Below the pieces are notes generated by a model, which saw nothing but the letters and a program-made list of their open reading frames with translations, was not told where the DNA came from and made no database searches. This document shows positions 1-5,569 of a DNA stretch of 5,569 bases, piece after piece. Within the stretch, counting starts at the first letter, position 1. Each line of letters opens with the position of its first letter. The stretch spans positions 1 to 5,569 of the forward strand of contig CANBLA010000068.1 in the NCBI GenBank assembly GCA_947369305.1, written 5' to 3'. Source of the stretch: an uncultured Clostridia bacterium. GTDB lineage: Bacteria > Bacillota_A > Clostridia > TANB77 > CAG-508. A program made the translations under genes and the position numbers.

Positions 1-35
1 TAGAACAAATTTAAGGGAAAAAGAGAAATGAAAGT

Positions 36-72
36 AAAAAATGTTACTTGTTTTGGACAAGTAACATTTTTT
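36..72. terminator. Strong bidirectional intrinsic terminator
   Basis: A perfect 16-bp stem (36-51 with 57-72) closes a 5-base loop TTTGG. The outer six pairs are A-T, so each strand ends the hairpin in a run of six T. Nothing coding is visible to its left, so on the + strand it probably ends a gene lying before base 1. On the minus strand it is a backup behind the rpsI terminator at 171-207. Seen directly; the assignment to a left-hand gene is inference. Confidence 0.85.
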
Positions 73-105
73 AAAAGATATCATAGTAAAATATGATGTT
101 TTTTT
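73..105 (+). terminator. Second, tandem terminator
   Basis: Immediately after the first terminator, bases 73-85 can pair with 92-104 around the loop GTAAAA. This gives about 13 pairs, two of them G-U, with a core of ATCATA/TATGAT. The 3' arm runs into seven T (99-105). It has few G-C pairs and is weaker than the 36-72 hairpin. Its position makes it look like a backup for the same left-hand + strand transcript. Confidence 0.5.
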
Positions 106-170
106 AAATTTTGTATATTGTGTGTATATTACGCAGTAACTTTTGACGGCTTTTATAACTTTTATAAAGA

Positions 171-207
171 TAATAAAAAAGCAGTAATCTAAATCGATTA
201 CCGCTTT
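171..207 (-). terminator. Intrinsic terminator of the rplM-rpsI operon
   Basis: Read on the minus strand, bases 207-196 pair with 189-178 around a 6-base loop. The 12-bp stem includes one G-U pair and is followed by a TTTTTTATTAT tract (180-171). It begins 41 bases past the rpsI stop codon and no other gene lies between, so it should end the rplM-rpsI message. Confidence 0.85.
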
Positions 208-228
208 GTATATAGGTTTTTGACCTTC

Positions 229-250
229 TGCCCCAAAGGGCACTTTTTTA
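229..250 (+). terminator. Weak plus-strand hairpin with T run facing rpsI
   Basis: TGCCC (229-233) pairs with GGGCA (238-242) around the loop CAAA and is followed by CTTTTTT on the + strand. It would stop + strand transcription just before it runs antisense into rpsI. The stem is only five pairs but is mostly G-C. On the minus strand the same hairpin lies just after the rpsI stop codon and has no T tract. It may be a minor convergent terminator or chance. Confidence 0.35.
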
Positions 251-649
251 TCTCTTACTAAATTGAGGTGCTTTTCTCGCTTTTTTCAATCCATATTTCT
301 TTCTTTCTTTCATACGTGGATCTCTTGTTAAAAATCCAGCATGTTTTAAAGTAGGACGTAGTTCTGAATTAGCCTCTGCTAAAGCTCTGGCAATACCATG
401 TCTTATGGCACCTGCTTGACCAGTGAATCCGCCTCCTGCTACTGTACAAATAACATCATATTTTCCTGTTGTATTTGTTACGCTAAATGCTTGATTTACA
501 ATTACTTTTAAAATTTCTGTACCAAAATATTCACTTAAATCTTTTTTATTGACTGTTATTTTTCCAGTTCCAGCCATTAATCTAACACGAGCAATCGATT
601 TTTTTCTACGACCAGTTCCTAAAAATACGATATTTTCTTTTTTTGCCAT
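248..649 (-). CDS. rpsI: 30S ribosomal protein uS9
   Basis: This 133-residue protein is full length for uS9, a protein of the 30S subunit head whose C-terminal tail reaches into the P-site tRNA region. Family signatures are visible: an N-terminal [12 protein letters not shown] block (about residues 11-22), the [19 protein letters not shown] block (about 72-88), a lysine/arginine-rich stretch from residue 107 ([26 protein letters not shown] region) and the family's terminal SKR. The ATG start has a GGGAGGT ribosome binding site (658-664) lying inside the end of rplM, eight bases upstream. Only one base separates it from the rplM stop codon, so the two are cotranscribed and probably translationally coupled. 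rplM-rpsI is the common bacterial order. A terminator follows at 171-207. Identification is secure. Confidence 0.98.
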
Positions 650-650
650 C

Positions 651-1088
651 TTATTTTACCTCCCATACTTCTGGTTTTTGTGCTATATTTTCATGCTCAT
701 TACCAGCATAAACACGTACATGAGTAAGTTGTTTTCTGCCTAATTTTGTATGAGGAAGCATTCCTTTTACTGCTAAGTACATAGCTTTTTCTGGTTTATG
801 ATCCATCATAACACGAGCGGTTGTTTCTTTCATTCCGCCAATGTAGCCTGAATGATGTCGATAGATTTTTTGATCTAATTTACGACCTGTCAATACAGCG
901 TCTTTACAATTTATAATGATAACATAATCGCCACAATCCGCATTTGGTGTGAATGTTGGTTTATGTTTTCCGCGTAGTAATTTTGCAGCTTCTGTTGCTG
1001 TTCTACCAAGAGGTCGGTGGCTAGCATCAATTACGTACCATTTTTTTTCAATTTCGCCTTTTTTTGGACTATAAGTAGTATTATTCAT
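651..1088 (-). CDS. rplM: 50S ribosomal protein uL13
   Basis: The protein has 145 residues, the usual size of uL13, an early-assembling 50S protein that binds 23S rRNA. Recognisable family blocks are [30 protein letters not shown] (about residues 15-44), [12 protein letters not shown] (49-60), [15 protein letters not shown] (68-82) and the [15 protein letters not shown] segment (about 109-123), followed by [14 protein letters not shown] near the C terminus. The start is the ATG at 1086-1088, which is preceded by GGAGGG (1100-1105). An in-frame TTG at 1110-1112 would place that ribosome binding site inside the gene, so it is rejected. It is first in a two-gene operon with rpsI and is read from a TTGACT/TAAAAT promoter at 1262-1290 through a structured leader of about 165 bases. 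Confidence 0.98.
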
Positions 1089-1257
1089 GGTAAAAAATAC
1101 CCTCCATTTCAAAATTTTTATTTTTTATCTTGAAAATTTTAAGTTGCTAAGACAGAAAATTTCAAGATTTCTCATGATTTATAATATTTTTCTATTAAAA
1201 AATTTAGAATCTACCGGGGAGAAGATTAAAATTTTTTAATCCTATTATAAATTGCTT
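1089..1257 (-). promoter_or_regulatory. Structured 5' leader of rplM (candidate L13 leader)
   Basis: The untranslated leader between the predicted start of transcription (about 1255-1257) and rplM is full of pairing. On the minus strand, ATCTTGAAATTTT (1168-1156) pairs with AAAATTTTCAAGAT (1140-1127), giving 13 pairs with one bulged base around a 15-base loop. No T run follows, so it is not a terminator. Upstream, GATTAAA/TTTAATC forms a 7-bp hairpin (about 1240-1223) next to a GC-rich CTTCTCCCCGG patch that stands out from its AT surroundings. Low-GC Bacillota are known to carry autoregulatory L13 leaders before rplM. Matching this one to that Rfam family is inference, because I cannot align it here. 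Confidence 0.5.
1100..1105 (-). promoter_or_regulatory. Ribosome binding site that fixes the rplM start
   Basis: Read on the minus strand this is GGAGGG, 11 bases before the ATG at 1088. The spacing is slightly long but usable. It decides for ATG 1088 over the in-frame TTG at 1112, which lies upstream of the site. Confidence 0.8.
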
Positions 1258-1261
1258 AATT

Positions 1262-1290
1262 ATTTTAATATAGTTTTGGGAAAAAGTCAA
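1262..1290 (-). promoter_or_regulatory. Sigma-A promoter of rplM-rpsI
   Basis: On the minus strand, -35 TTGACT (1290-1285) and -10 TAAAAT (1267-1262) are separated by exactly 17 bases. Each matches the consensus at five of six positions. It is the only well-formed promoter upstream of rplM. Its -35 box lies back to back with that of the divergent promoter at 1310-1338, with 19 bases between them, so the two could interfere or share control. Confidence 0.75.
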
Positions 1291-1309
1291 GTATTTTGCT
1301 AAAAAAAAC

Positions 1310-1338
1310 TTGCAAAAATTGGGATTTTATGTTAAAAT
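1310..1338 (+). promoter_or_regulatory. Candidate promoter A for the exported-protein gene
   Basis: TTGCAA (1310-1315) and TAAAAT (1333-1338) are 17 bases apart, and a TGT triplet directly before the -10 box gives an extended -10. Transcription would begin near 1345, leaving a 5' UTR of about 190 bases before the ATG at 1533. This is a good match, but the start is unproven and a second candidate lies at 1384-1411. Confidence 0.55.
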
Positions 1339-1367
1339 ATGAATGTAACTATATTGTTTTTGCATGA

Positions 1368-1390
1368 GTGACCAAAAGATAGTTAGTCAC
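1368..1390. promoter_or_regulatory. Operator-like inverted repeat
   Basis: GTGACCAA (1368-1375) and TTAGTCAC (1383-1390) form an inverted repeat with 8-base arms, seven of eight pairs matching, around a 7-base spacer. It overlaps the -35 region of candidate promoter B (1384-1389) and lies just downstream of candidate promoter A. A bound repressor here could therefore block both. I cannot assign a regulator family. As RNA it could also form a hairpin. Confidence 0.35.
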
Positions 1391-1411
1391 GATATACACG
1401 ATTGGTATAAT
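1384..1411 (+). promoter_or_regulatory. Candidate promoter B (extended -10)
   Basis: A TGG triplet followed by TATAAT (1406-1411) forms a perfect extended -10 element. The -35-like TAGTCA (1384-1389) matches the consensus at four of six positions, with a 16-base spacer. It would give a 5' UTR of about 115 bases for the gene at 1533. It may act in addition to, or instead of, promoter A. Confidence 0.5.
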
Positions 1412-1461
1412 CAATAAATATAAGATTATAAATAAAAAACCTTTCATTTTTCAAAAATAAT

Positions 1462-1488
1462 AATCAATATTTGGCACACATATTGATT
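1462..1488 (+). other. Hairpin in the 5' UTR of the exported-protein gene
   Basis: AATCAATAT (1462-1470) pairs perfectly with ATATTGATT (1480-1488), giving nine pairs around the 9-base loop TTGGCACAC. The stem is A-T rich and no proper T run follows, so it is not a convincing terminator. It lies 31 bases before the ribosome binding site and could stabilise the message or bind a regulator. The role is inference. Confidence 0.4.
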
Positions 1489-1532
1489 TTGAACTTATAT
1501 ATAAAAATTTATTTTGGGAAGGAGACAAAAGA

Positions 1533-2303
1533 ATGAAAAAACTAATAATGATAGCAATAGCTATAATTTTAGTAATGTCAACAATAATTCCTGTTATGGC
1601 AGCAGAGGAGAAATTTAAAACAGATTTATCTGTATTCAAAGAAAAGGCTTTAACTCTATCAGTTTATAACAGAAATATTCGAGAAAACAAAAAAGGAGAG
1701 CGGGCTAACTGTGATTGTATCGTAAGTTGTTCCTGTACACGGTTATACCATATCTTAGAAGACACACCAGAAGATGATTTTTATTCGGTTTTTTTTGATA
1801 ATCAGGTGGTTCGTCCACTGGGAGGAATATACCAAGATCAATCAAGTTCAATGGAAGAAACCTTTTGCTATGAAAAATCGAATATCATCAAAAATCTTTC
1901 ACCTTTTTTAAAAGAAAAGGACATTGAAGATGTCTTTAAAAATAAAAAAACAAATTTGTATGGACTTTTAAGTTCATTCAATAATAAGATTAGTTTTGAA
2001 AGAATTATTACTATACCAAGAGAAGTACCCGTAATTATTACAGATTTATGGGATACAGCAGAAAGTGAAGAAAAAGAATTATTGAGGTATGAGGGAGAAA
2101 TTGTTTTTTGTGTACCATATGCAAGTACAAATAAAGAAGGTGTTTTACACTGCGAAGAAGTTGTAAATGACCTTTTATGGAATCATGGTTGGCTACCAGG
2201 AGGTATGGCAATATATGTCATTTATACAGATGAAGTTATTATTGAATATAGCAATAGTTATCACAACCTTGAGGAAGGATTTATAAAAATTTATGTTCCT
2301 TAA
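1533..2303 (+). CDS. Exported protein of unknown function, cysteine cluster
   Basis: I do not recognise this 256-residue protein. It starts with a clear Sec signal peptide: lysines at 2-3, a hydrophobic core to about residue 19, and VMA-AEE giving likely signal peptidase I cleavage after Ala23. No cysteine follows the core, so it is not a lipoprotein. No second membrane segment or sortase motif is seen, so it is probably released. The mature part is acidic and carries CXCX3CXC at residues 60-68 plus cysteines at 112, 193 and 207. That is unusual for a secreted protein in this group and suggests metal binding or disulfides. The second half reads as alternating strand-like segments (about 157-171, 188-196, 225-240). 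AAGGAG (1519-1524) lies eight bases before the ATG. The gene has its own promoters and terminator, so it is monocistronic. Codon and base use resemble the neighbours. Confidence 0.85.
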   Translation: MKKLIMIAIAIILVMSTIIPVMAAEEKFKTDLSVFKEKALTLSVYNRNIRENKKGERANCDCIVSCSCTRLYHILEDTPEDDFYSVFFDNQVVRPLGGIYQDQSSSMEETFCYEKSNIIKNLSPFLKEKDIEDVFKNKKTNLYGLLSSFNNKISFERIITIPREVPVIITDLWDTAESEEKELLRYEGEIVFCVPYASTNKEGVLHCEEVVNDLLWNHGWLPGGMAIYVIYTDEVIIEYSNSYHNLEEGFIKIYVP

Positions 2304-2340
2304 TCCCTAATTATTAAAAAAAATTGATAAAGTGTGCTAG

Positions 2341-2377
2341 AAATTGTGTGTCGATTTAGTCGACACACAATTTTGTT
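2341..2377 (+). terminator. Terminator of the exported-protein gene
   Basis: A perfect 14-bp stem (2341-2354 with 2360-2373) carries the core TTGTGTGTCGA/TCGACACACAA around the loop TTTAG and is followed by TTTTGTT. It begins 38 bases after the stop codon at 2301-2303. It insulates this gene from the infC promoters. The minus strand lacks a T run after the hairpin, so it should act in one direction. Confidence 0.85.
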
Positions 2378-2423
2378 AAATTTAGAATAAAACTATAGTT
2401 ATGTTGAGAATTTAGAAAAAAAC

Positions 2424-2452
2424 TTGACAAAATTATGTAAATATGCTATAAT
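2424..2452 (+). promoter_or_regulatory. Upstream infC-operon promoter P1 (perfect consensus)
   Basis: TTGACA (2424-2429) and TATAAT (2447-2452) are separated by 17 bases, with TGC before the -10 box as an extended element. It matches the sigma-A consensus at all twelve positions. It lies about 250 bases before the infC start codon, so its transcript would carry all of the leader elements, including those at 2454-2496 and 2570-2687. The start of transcription falls near 2459, inside the inverted repeat at 2454-2484. Confidence 0.85.
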
Positions 2453-2453
2453 A

Positions 2454-2496
2454 AACTTAAGAAAAGGGCACCTTTTATTAAGTTCGGCCTTTTTTT
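2454..2496 (+). promoter_or_regulatory. Inverted repeat at P1 start, with competing hairpins
   Basis: AACTTAA-G-AAAAGG (2454-2467) and CCTTTT-A-TTAAGTT (2471-2484) form a nearly perfect inverted repeat around GCA, with one mismatch, sitting over the predicted P1 start site. In RNA the segment AAAAGGGC (2462-2469) has a second partner, GCCTTTTT (2487-2494), giving eight pairs with one G-U. The AAAAGG/CCTTTT hairpin and this larger, T-run-ending hairpin exclude each other, as in an attenuator. The pairing is seen directly. A role as operator or early attenuator is inference. Confidence 0.45.
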
Positions 2497-2528
2497 GAAA
2501 AATTGGTCGAGAAATTGCAAAATTTTAC

Positions 2529-2557
2529 TTGACAAATGAATTAGCACGTGCTAAAAT
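2529..2557 (+). promoter_or_regulatory. Proximal infC-operon promoter P2
   Basis: TTGACA (2529-2534) and TAAAAT (2552-2557) are 17 bases apart, with TGC before the -10 box. One of the twelve hexamer positions differs from consensus. Transcription would start near 2563-2565, exactly upstream of the L20-type leader. That placement makes it the natural main promoter of infC-rpmI-rplT. Confidence 0.85.
2541..2554. promoter_or_regulatory. Perfect 14-bp palindrome overlapping the P2 -10 box
   Basis: TTAGCACGTGCTAA is a perfect palindrome occupying the P2 spacer and the first bases of its -10 box. A protein bound here would occlude RNA polymerase. The half-sites TTAGCAC/GTGCTAA equal the outer part of the HrcA CIRCE element, but CIRCE needs a 9-base spacer that is absent here. 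It may be an operator for an unidentified regulator or a chance palindrome. Confidence 0.35.
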
Positions 2558-2563
2558 AATAAT

Positions 2564-2687
2564 GTTCTTAAGAAGAAGTATCCACTTCTCACCTTATGCC
2601 AAACGGTTTTAAGGTTAAAATATCAATTGTATATTGTTATTTATGTTGTGGATTTGACTTTTTTTAGGAAAGTCATTTTTTATTTTA
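2564..2687 (+). promoter_or_regulatory. L20-type leader of infC-rpmI-rplT
   Basis: This is a cis-acting leader through which bL20 is known to repress its own operon in Bacillota. The parts fit. There is a hairpin AGAAGT/ACTTCT (2574-2579 with 2584-2589). A second hairpin ACCTTA/TAAGGT (2591-2596 with 2610-2615) has CC-AAAC-GG at its tip. A long-range pairing ATCCAC (2580-2585) with GTGGAT (2648-2653) overlaps the first hairpin, so the two are alternatives or form a pseudoknot. A terminator (2655-2687) directly follows the GTGGAT strand. The order CCAC-TTCTCACCTTA ... AAGGT ... GTGG-terminator agrees with my memory of the Rfam L20_leader family. I could not run a covariance search. Confidence 0.8.
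2655..2687 (+). terminator. Attenuator terminator inside the infC leader
   Basis: TGACTTT (2655-2661) pairs with AAAGTCA (2669-2675) around TTTTAGG and is followed by TTTTTTATTTTATT. It stands just before the infC ribosome binding site and would abort transcription before the operon. It directly abuts the GTGGAT strand of the long-range leader pairing, so leader folding, and presumably bL20 binding, can decide between stop and read-through. Confidence 0.75.
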
Positions 2688-2689
2688 TT

Positions 2690-2696
2690 GGAGGTG
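2690..2696 (+). promoter_or_regulatory. Ribosome binding site that fixes the infC start
   Basis: GGAGGTG lies directly after the attenuator T run, with its GGAGG core nine bases before the ATA at 2704. No ATG, GTG or TTG sits at suitable spacing. This is the main evidence that ATA is the start codon. Confidence 0.85.
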
Positions 2697-2703
2697 TTTC
2701 GTT

Positions 2704-3213
2704 ATAAAACAAGAATTACCAATTAACAGACAAATCAAAGCAAAAGAGGTTCAATTGATTGGGGCAGATGGAGATAAAAAAGGAGTTATACCTTTTGACA
2801 AAGCATTAGAACTTGCAGAAGAACAGGATATGGATTTAGTTTTAGTATCACCAAATGCTCAGCCAGTGGTTTGTAAAATCATGAACTATGGTAAATATAA
2901 ATTTGAACAAGCCAAAAAAGAGAAGGAAGCTAGAAAGAATCAAAAAGCGGTTGAATTAAAAGAGATTCGAGTTTCAACTAATATTGGGGATCATGATTTC
3001 GAATTTAAAAGCAAAAATGCAAGAAAATTCTTAGAAGCTGGAAATAAAGTAAAACTTTCATTACGTTTCAGAGGAAGAGAATTAAACAATATGAAAATTG
3101 GAGAAGCCGTTTTAAATAAATTTGTTGAAGATTTAGCCGATATTGCAACAGTAGAAAAAAGACCATTATTAGAAGGCAAGACTATGTTTGTTATATTAAC
3201 AAAAAATAAATAA
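2704..3213 (+). CDS. infC: Translation initiation factor IF-3
   Basis: IF3 binds the 30S subunit, prevents premature 50S joining and checks that a proper start codon and initiator tRNA are paired. The reading frame extends upstream of the first conventional start (TTG 2755) to an ATA at 2704, nine bases after GGAGG. This adds a conserved N terminus containing PINRQIKAKEVQLIGADGD, giving 169 residues, the normal IF3 length. The N domain includes LVLVSPNAQPVVCKIMNYGKYKFEQ (about residues 45-69), followed by the lysine-rich linker and the C domain with IRVSTNIGDHDF (about 88-99) and KVKLSLRFRGRELNN. Rare AUU/AUC/AUA starts are the known means by which IF3 represses its own synthesis, so the ATA is functional rather than an error. 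It is first in the operon, behind the L20-type leader. Confidence 0.96.
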   Translation: MKQELPINRQIKAKEVQLIGADGDKKGVIPFDKALELAEEQDMDLVLVSPNAQPVVCKIMNYGKYKFEQAKKEKEARKNQKAVELKEIRVSTNIGDHDFEFKSKNARKFLEAGNKVKLSLRFRGRELNNMKIGEAVLNKFVEDLADIATVEKRPLLEGKTMFVILTKNK

Positions 3214-3238
3214 TAAAGAAAAAGGGGGTAGTTAAAAA

Positions 3239-3445
3239 ATGCCAAAATTAAAAACAAACAAAGCAGCTAGTAAAAGATATAAATATACTGCTTTAGGAAA
3301 AGTAAAAAGAACAAAAGCCAACAGAAGACATCGTTTGGCGACTAAAACAAAAAGAACAAAATTAACAGCTAGAGTTCAAAATGGAATCGCAGATAAATCT
3401 TGCGAAAATACAATTAGAAAATTATTACCTTATGGTAAAAAATAG
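3239..3445 (+). CDS. rpmI: 50S ribosomal protein bL35
   Basis: This 68-residue, strongly basic protein has the bL35 hallmarks: MPKLKTNKAASKRYKYT at the N terminus, GKVKRTKANRRHRLATKTKR in the middle (about residues 20-39), and a C-terminal IRKLLPYGKK. It binds 23S rRNA in the 50S subunit. It lies 25 bases after infC with a G-rich ribosome binding site (AGGGGGT, 3223-3229). It is the middle gene of infC-rpmI-rplT and shares the leader control. Confidence 0.97.
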   Translation: MPKLKTNKAASKRYKYTALGKVKRTKANRRHRLATKTKRTKLTARVQNGIADKSCENTIRKLLPYGKK

Positions 3446-3474
3446 AAAATATAAGGAAAGGAAGGATATAAAAA

Positions 3475-3825
3475 ATGGCAAGAGTAAAAACAGCAAGAAC
3501 AACAAGAGCAAGACATAAAAAAGTTTTAAAACAAGCAAAAGGTTATTTTGGTGCAAAACGTTACAGATATAGAATGGCTAAACAAGCAGTTATGAAATCT
3601 GGAATGTATGCATATGTAGGAAGAAAAGATAAAAAATCGAATTTTAGAAAGTTATGGATTACACGTATTAATGCGGCTGCAAGAATGAATGGATTGACAT
3701 ATAGCAAACTAATTGCAGGATTAAAGAAAGCTAATGTTACGATTAATCGAAAAATGTTAGCAGAAATCGCAGTATCTGATGAAAAAGCTTTTGCAGAGAT
3801 TGCGGAGATTGCAAAAAAGGCATAG
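3475..3825 (+). CDS. rplT: 50S ribosomal protein bL20
   Basis: The 116-residue protein is full length for bL20, which is needed for early 50S assembly. It is also the known repressor of infC-rpmI-rplT operons through the leader RNA. The start [33 protein letters not shown] leads into the [34 protein letters not shown] block (about residues 37-70) and a C-terminal helical part ([15 protein letters not shown]). All of these are typical. The ATG follows GGAAGG (3460-3465) with good spacing and 29 bases after rpmI. Identification is secure. Confidence 0.98.
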
Positions 3826-3860
3826 AATTTAAATTATATAAATTGTTGGGGGCAAATTTA

Positions 3861-3867
3861 GGAGGTG
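3861..3867 (+). promoter_or_regulatory. Ribosome binding site of comF
   Basis: GGAGGTG precedes two possible in-frame starts: TTG 3872 (6 bases after the GGAGG core) and ATG 3878 (12 bases after). Spacing mildly favours TTG and codon type favours ATG. The products differ by two residues only. Confidence 0.7.
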
Positions 3868-3871
3868 TTTT

Positions 3872-4519
3872 TTGAACATGTTTGAATTTGTCCTTCATTT
3901 TTTATTTCCACCAGCTTGTTCGGTTTGTGGGAAAATTGACAAAAATTGGCTTTGTCCAAATTGTCAAAGAAGAGTGGAAAGATTGGAAAAATCCAATTTA
4001 GTGGAAATAGAAAATAAGAAATATGAGAAATTGTTGTATCTTTTTACGTATCAAAGTCTGGTGCGAAAGTTGATTTTGCGTTATAAATTTGCGAATAAAG
4101 CATATTTAAATCATTTTTTTGCAAATCAAATTGTGAAAAATGAAAAAAACAAAGAAGTTTTGAGAAAGTATGACATGATTATTCCAGTACCGATGCACAA
4201 GAAAAAAATGCAGAAAAGAGGGTATAATCAAACAGAATTGGTTGCAAATGAGTTGGAGAAAAGTTTAAAAGTTCCTGTGAAGAGTGATATTTTATTCAAA
4301 GTGGTAAATACGACAACACAAAGTAAATTAGGTGGAAAAGCTAGACAAAGTAATATTCAACATGCATTTTTTATTAAAAATGATATTGAGATAGAAGATA
4401 AGAAAATTATTTTGTTAGATGATATTTATACAACTGGCGCGACTTCGCAAGAATGTAGTCGTGTTTTGAAAGAGGCTGGGGCGAATGAAATATTGGTTTT
4501 GGTTCTTGCAAAGGATTGA
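3872..4519 (+). CDS. comFC: ComF family phosphoribosyltransferase-like protein
   Basis: The 215-residue protein has the full ComFC/GntX layout. An N-terminal zinc finger is formed by CSVC and CPNC (about residues 16-19 and 28-31). The central PVPMHKKKMQKRGYNQTE motif (about 106-123) follows, then LGGKARQSN, and finally the PRPP-binding loop IILLDDIYTTGAT (about 179-191). In Bacillus and relatives ComFC is needed for DNA uptake during natural transformation. Many non-competent bacteria keep the gene, and its exact reaction is unsettled. Usual length is about 190-240 residues, so it is intact. It begins 46 bases after rplT with no terminator or clear promoter between, so read-through from the infC operon is likely. 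The usual partner comFA is not seen in the window. TTG 3872 or ATG 3878 may be the start. Confidence 0.9.
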   Translation: MNMFEFVLHFLFPPACSVCGKIDKNWLCPNCQRRVERLEKSNLVEIENKKYEKLLYLFTYQSLVRKLILRYKFANKAYLNHFFANQIVKNEKNKEVLRKYDMIIPVPMHKKKMQKRGYNQTELVANELEKSLKVPVKSDILFKVVNTTTQSKLGGKARQSNIQHAFFIKNDIEIEDKKIILLDDIYTTGATSQECSRVLKEAGANEILVLVLAKD

Positions 4520-4628
4520 AGTATAGTATTTTTTAGTGAGAATGTTTGTCAAGTTGATTTTTTGGGAAAAGGAAACAAATATTTTTTTAGATTCAGAAAA
4601 GCAAATTAAATATTTTGTATAATTCAAT

Positions 4629-4672
4629 AAAAAACAATCATTTAGGAAACATTCCCCAAATGATTGTTTTTT
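4629..4672. terminator. Bidirectional terminator between comF and nrnA
   Basis: A perfect 15-bp stem (4629-4643 with 4658-4672) has six A-T pairs at its base, so both strands end in a T run. A smaller GGAA/TTCC stem (4645-4648 with 4652-4655) can form in the 14-base loop. It sits between two convergent genes, 110 bases after the comF stop and 17 bases after the nrnA stop, and should serve both. Confidence 0.85.
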
Positions 4673-4689
4673 GTTGTTGATAGAGCAAA

Positions 4690-5517
4690 TCAAGAACTTA
4701 AAATTTCAGTGGCAATAAGTTCTAATATATCGTTACAGGAACCTATTGCAGTACATCCTGAAGAATAACTATGCCCGCCTCCTTTTACTAATTTGCCTGA
4801 TGACACAAGTTTAGAACAAATATCGTTCAAATCAGTATTTGAATCTAATGTGCGTAAAGAGCCTTTAAATTCTCCTTTCTCATTTTCAATCAATAAAACC
4901 AAAGAAGTATAGTTTATTGATTTTTGTAGTTCGGAGATGATGGCTTTGTGATTTATTGTATTCAAGTTTTTTTCAGAATCTAATAAATCATCTTGTAATA
5001 CATAGGAACAAAAAACGGAGTTATTTGGAGTTGATTTAAAGTAACCTCTTTTTATTACAAGGTTAACTAATTCCAAAGTTCTACAACTTCGGGCGGTTAG
5101 TTTGCATAATATATAACTTATATCTACTCCAAGATTCTCCAATTCGTTAATAGCATTTGTTACAAGCTCTGTTATATTTAAAGATAGATTAGCTGTATCA
5201 GAGATTAAGCCAGTAGCAATACAATCAAGAAAATGTTTATTCATACAAGGGAACACTTTCTTAATAATGTAACTGCAAGAAGGTGCCAGAGGATCAATTA
5301 TACCGTGTGTAAAAGGTATGGATGTTTCTTCGTGATGATCAAAACAAATGACTTTTTTGGCACGTTTTAAGATAGAGATTCCTTCTAATAAGTGCGTATC
5401 AGCACAATCAACAACTATTATTACATCATATTTTTCTTTTGTAGGTGCTGTTTTTAGATGGTCAATTCCTGCGATAAAAGAGAAATCTTTAATGAATTCA
5501 GGAATGATTACATCAAT
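4690..5517 (-). CDS. nrnA: DHH phosphoesterase, NrnA-like, 5'-truncated
   Basis: The minus-strand frame is open from the last genuine base (5517) to the TGA at 4690, giving 275 residues with no start of its own. NrnA family enzymes degrade 2-5-mer RNAs and dephosphorylate 3'-phosphoadenosine 5'-phosphate in the cytoplasm, using two metal ions. The metal-binding motifs of the DHH domain are present: VVDCAD (residues 35-40), FDHHEE (59-64) and GLISDTAN with Asp107. The C-terminal DHHA1 substrate-binding motif GGGH is at 246-249 (4771-4782). The first DHH motif and about 45 N-terminal residues are missing because the contig ends. Compared with the B. subtilis family length of about 313, the rest is normal. 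An in-frame GTG at 5256 is an internal valine, not the start. A DHH enzyme of different specificity cannot be excluded. Confidence 0.85.
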   Translation of the reverse strand: MDVIIPEFIKDFSFIAGIDHLKTAPTKEKYDVIIVVDCADTHLLEGISILKRAKKVICFDHHEETSIPFTHGIIDPLAPSCSYIIKKVFPCMNKHFLDCIATGLISDTANLSLNITELVTNAINELENLGVDISYILCKLTARSCRTLELVNLVIKRGYFKSTPNNSVFCSYVLQDDLLDSEKNLNTINHKAIISELQKSINYTSLVLLIENEKGEFKGSLRTLDSNTDLNDICSKLVSSGKLVKGGGHSYSSGCTAIGSCNDILELIATEILSS

Positions 5518-5569
5518 AGATCGGAAGAGCGTCGTGTAGGGAAAGAGTGTCGTGTTTTTTTTTGTTGGG
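5518..5569. other. Illumina adapter remnant plus low-quality tail (artifact)
   Basis: Bases 5518-5550 match the Illumina TruSeq universal adapter (reverse-complement form) at all 33 positions, beginning AGATCGGAAGAGC. The remaining 19 bases (CGTG, nine T, then GTTGGG) look like read-through noise, not genome. This part should be trimmed. Any frame running through it, on either strand, is meaningless. The match is to a well-known sequence and is from memory, but it is distinctive. Confidence 0.96.

Follow-up and report, generated by a model that had tools for sequence, protein, structure and literature searches.

The window, by which we mean the whole stretch of 5,569 bases analyzed here, almost certainly ends in adapter read-through contamination that occupies its 52 terminal bases. 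These bases consist of an exact 33-nucleotide match to the Illumina TruSeq universal adapter, read as its reverse complement, and a short T/G-rich tail, and they adjoin a gene of the DHH/DHHA1 family, called nrnA here, whose 5′ part is missing. The window very probably represents an entire contig, given that a single contig, 5569 bases long, is listed with the database copy of a protein encoded here. Its end carries the following features:

4690 to 5517, minus strand: 5′-truncated gene of the DHH/DHHA1 family (nrnA-like), with the native sequence ending at about 5517
5348 to 5539, plus strand: spurious open reading frame antisense to nrnA, with 170 of its 192 bases native
5518 to 5550, plus strand: reverse complement of the Illumina TruSeq universal adapter, 33 nucleotides, exact
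5518 to 5568, minus strand: spurious N terminus of 17 residues, added to the nrnA frame by translation of the adapter and the tail
5551 to 5569, plus strand: T/G-rich tail 3′ of the adapter, 19 nucleotides, CGTGTTTTTTTTTGTTGGG

The sequence of the TruSeq universal adapter was matched to positions 5518 to 5550, and its reverse complement is identical to them at 33 of 33 nucleotides, without a mismatch and from the first adapter base onward. At the base composition of the window, the chance expectation of such a 33-mer is about 2.7e-17 per window, counting both strands, and the 13-nucleotide core of the adapter is present as a single copy when both strands of the window are searched. The orientation is that of an insert followed by the adapter, with the end of the adapter 19 nucleotides short of the 3′ end of the contig, and position 5518 is presumably, given the library chemistry, the A of the A-tail at the ligation junction. 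The adapter core, AGATCGGAAGAG, and the reverse-specific arm, CGTCGTGTAGGGAAAGAGTGT, are both printed in the work of Moeller et al. (2024; PMC11536531), part of which describes Illumina adapter contamination at the contig ends of microbial assemblies and reports a significant enrichment of adapter (p < 0.01) in 1110 of 15,657 MGnify species assemblies, where about 157 were expected. According to the same part of that paper, the adapters concentrate at contig ends, the 3′ end in the case of the forward adapter, and contiguity is lost. The window resembles these cases in that it carries the same core and reverse-specific arm, in forward orientation and only some tens of bases from the 3′ terminus of the contig; it differs from them in its 19-nucleotide T/G-rich tail, since no such tail is described in the part of the paper considered here. 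The artifact is an ordinary phenomenon that has already been published.

To the inside of position 5518 the sequence is conserved among relatives, and to the outside it is not. When the native part of nrnA was used to scan the genome_contigs collection, 55 stretches matched, eight of which encode a relative, corresponding to seven distinct loci in uncultured Clostridia, Clostridium, and Clostridiaceae genomes with proteins that are 61 to 81% identical. The open nrnA frame runs upstream past the junction in all seven relatives. On the native side of the junction, 68 to 78 of 90 bases match these loci, versus 13 to 16 of 52 bases on the outside, and the blastn alignments end at 5517 in five of the seven, at 5518 in one, and at 5521 in one. 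Five homologous proteins from other samples all have 50 to 51 residues ahead of the junction; four of them are 324 to 326 amino acids long, and one has 222 amino acids with a divergent C-terminal end. The adapter is absent from the orthologous place in each of the seven relatives, and a 23-nucleotide adapter pattern was found in none of their whole genomes. The preliminary description had held that the last 52 bases are not biological and had named relatives with the same 52 bases beside nrnA as the observation that would contradict this. No such relative appeared among the seven, all of which have a different sequence there, and the claim is upheld. Its assignment of positions 5518 to 5550 to the adapter is likewise borne out by the sequence itself, by the position at the contig end, by the orientation (forward adapter at the 3′ end), and by the relatives.

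At least 120 stretches of viral_contigs, a collection of IMG/VR contigs, carry the same 33-mer. Among the viral matches listed, there are 122 copies, preceded by 122 different 12-base flanks, and when the stretches are read in adapter orientation, 106 of these copies lie within 60 nucleotides of the 3′ end and 119 within 300 nucleotides, with a median distance of 15 nucleotides. Some of the viral stretches are shorter than their contig; the 65 listed stretches that span their entire contig hold 67 copies, of which 57 are at most 60 nucleotides, and 66 at most 300 nucleotides, from the contig end. Of the 122 listed copies, three are a long way from the 3′ end: L049 and L112 carry theirs near the opposite end, and in L092 it is internal. 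In L112, from position 10 onward, the adapter is followed by what we take, by eye, to be the other TruSeq adapter, as in an adapter dimer. Directly after the 33-mer, 81 of the 102 listed viral copies with at least five bases left continue with AGATC, as in the single-index adapter, and 21 of the 102 do not; inspection by eye of other listed copies revealed index-like words, runs of A or G, and ragged tails.

The 23-nucleotide pattern occurs in 2 of 195 genomes from the family of G002, the relative closest by comF, with four copies (L136 to L139) located 18 to 23 nucleotides before the stretch ends. In one of these two genomes (G088), three contigs share the word AGAGGATA after the adapter, apparently a single library index. 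When the 52 bases were compared by megablast with 5426 complete E. coli genomes, one match appeared, which is internal, lies in fliI, and is 28 nucleotides long, and shorter pieces would escape detection in this search. When phage records were searched with positions 5400 to 5569, seven matched at the adapter over 32 to 41 query bases, two of them including a few native bases ahead of it and one extending into the tail; in four of the seven, the best-matching place is no more than about 300 bases from a record end, and in the other three it is internal. These occasionally nonterminal copies (viral, phage, and E. coli) count against read-through, and the internal copies in a few records mean that the contamination is not always terminal. 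The overall distribution fits a laboratory sequence, not a gene.

The best explanation for such an end is the following chain of events. If the library insert was shorter than the read, sequencing would run into the ligated TruSeq adapter and, past it, the read would enter unreliable cycles that yield a junk tail. Such a contaminated read, left without trimming or without full trimming, could then lead the assembler to extend the contig along it, so that the end would come to consist of 33 nucleotides of adapter and 19 nucleotides of junk. The short insert and the missed trimming are inferred from the assembled end. Other contigs of the assembly may plausibly be contaminated in the same way, as the preliminary description suggested. 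The Trimmomatic paper (PMC4103590), in the part that concerns adapters, describes the same mechanism, in which a fragment shorter than the read leaves adapter sequence at the end of the read; that account concerns reads, whereas here the assembled trace alone is seen.

The tail at positions 5551 to 5569 is probably a low-quality read end. Compared with the single-index adapter continuation, it matches at 5 of 19 positions, which was equaled by 14,676 of 20,000 shuffles, and the best placement of the dual-index continuation matches at 9 of 18 positions, equaled by 7,035 of 20,000 shuffles. We dropped a dual-index reading of the tail, i.e., an index word plus GTGTAGATC, because shuffles match equally well. 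Either of these continuations after the arm is a usual but nondefining mark of the adapter; the tail shows neither, unlike the 81 of 102 listed viral copies mentioned above, and this counts against read-through. Scanning viral_contigs with two exact patterns of the tail gave no exact match. It is very improbable, in our view, that the tail reflects an uncommon design of the library or a T-rich base-calling artifact specific to the run, in place of the usual adapter continuation or of the runs of A or G in other copies, that trimming missed; if it did, it could help to find further contigs from that library.

The adapter could also be artifactual in another way, with the tail derived from an adapter chimera or from some other read joined via shared adapter words. 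This would account for the difference between the tail and the expected adapter continuation, and at least one viral contig, L112 with its two apparent adapters, offers a possible precedent. Degraded read ends are nevertheless the simpler source of the tail, and ragged tails, e.g., runs of G, follow some of the viral copies too; neither of these points is decisive, and we consider a chimera or joined read unlikely. The nrnA frame is open throughout the 52 bases, as would be expected if they were genomic and nrnA had a different 5′ end or an insertion here. Against this stand the exact 33-mer of a synthetic oligonucleotide among the last bases of the contig and its attachment to so many different flanks elsewhere, mostly at ends, among the matches listed. 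In addition, the GC content is 46% in the last 50 bases versus 28 to 40% in the five 50-base steps before, and the sequence is shared by none of the seven relatives and none of the five homologues, which led us to reject a genomic origin; we regard it as extremely unlikely.

The Pfam models DHH and DHHA1 both pass their cutoffs in the nrnA frame, with the DHH profile entered at position 40, and the best NCBIfam match is recJ, at 39.5 bits and thus far below its own cutoff of 396.9 bits; the name nrnA is that of the preliminary description and rests on domain architecture and size. About 51 N-terminal codons are absent here, into which the real genome probably runs on, as it does in the relatives. 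The absent part includes an HxRPDGDA stretch that is present in the five proteins and seven loci compared. The adapter had initially been offered as the explanation for the missing start of nrnA. The start is indeed missing, but because the contig stops there: the sequence beyond the contig end is lost, which is different from damage by the adapter as such. The adapter marks the contig break within nrnA and may have caused it.

A similar correction applies to the open reading frame at 5348 to 5539, which exists as described but was not created by the adapter. The adapter contributes only its last 22 bases, stop codon included, and merely ends a frame that is otherwise native. A more evident spurious product is the false N terminus of 17 residues that is fused to the nrnA frame on the minus strand. 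A protein search with this false N terminus plus 23 native residues gave 15 candidates, of which five were nrnA relatives, and brought up no protein of a different kind; it thus gave no sign of the adapter-derived peptide in other proteins.

The window is AT-rich and has a clostridial look, as the relatives of its nrnA come from uncultured Clostridia. Apart from the end described above, it carries the following features:

Minus strand: rpsI and rplM
1533 to 2303, plus strand: gene for a 256-amino-acid protein with a signal-peptide-like N terminus (by eye)
2564 to 2691, plus strand: match to the Rfam model L20_leader, 52.8 bits (gathering threshold, 58.7), E value of 1.2e-8
2704 to 3213, plus strand: infC, with a conserved N terminus
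Plus strand: the gene series infC-rpmI-rplT-comF

Neither Pfam nor NCBIfam gave a match for the 256-amino-acid protein at the thresholds applied. Searching with it at E ≤ 1e-3 retrieved 41 proteins, one of which is the copy from the window itself; the remaining 40 are 47 to 72% identical to it, and a Pfam domain is listed for none of them. The L20_leader match, with a score slightly under the curated threshold, adjoins infC-rpmI-rplT on the upstream side. Between the upstream stop and the conserved N terminus of infC, ATG, GTG, and TTG are all absent in frame, and the infC frame most likely begins at ATA (2704 to 2706), behind a GGAGG at 2690 to 2694. ATA is found at the same place of infC in the relative closest by comF (L128), where it is preceded by ATC, and an AUA start has been reported for infC of S. 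aureus (PMC13009471).

At their 3′ ends, comF and nrnA converge at 4520 to 4690. The genome of G002 has infC-rpmI-rplT-comF in the same order, with a frame named by eye as response-regulator-like after comF and with nrnA on another contig; the arrangement in the window may reflect a difference in gene order or, less likely, a chimeric join. A distant search of plasmid records with the native part of the window (1 to 5517) returned 23 records at 60 to 80% identity, none covering 80% of it, and in the best 20 of the 23 it is mostly ribosomal protein genes that match.

The finding matters for data quality only and carries no biological meaning in itself. Trimming of the contig at position 5517 is advisable, the annotation of nrnA should carry a 5′-partial flag, and the false 17-residue N terminus should be kept out of protein databases.
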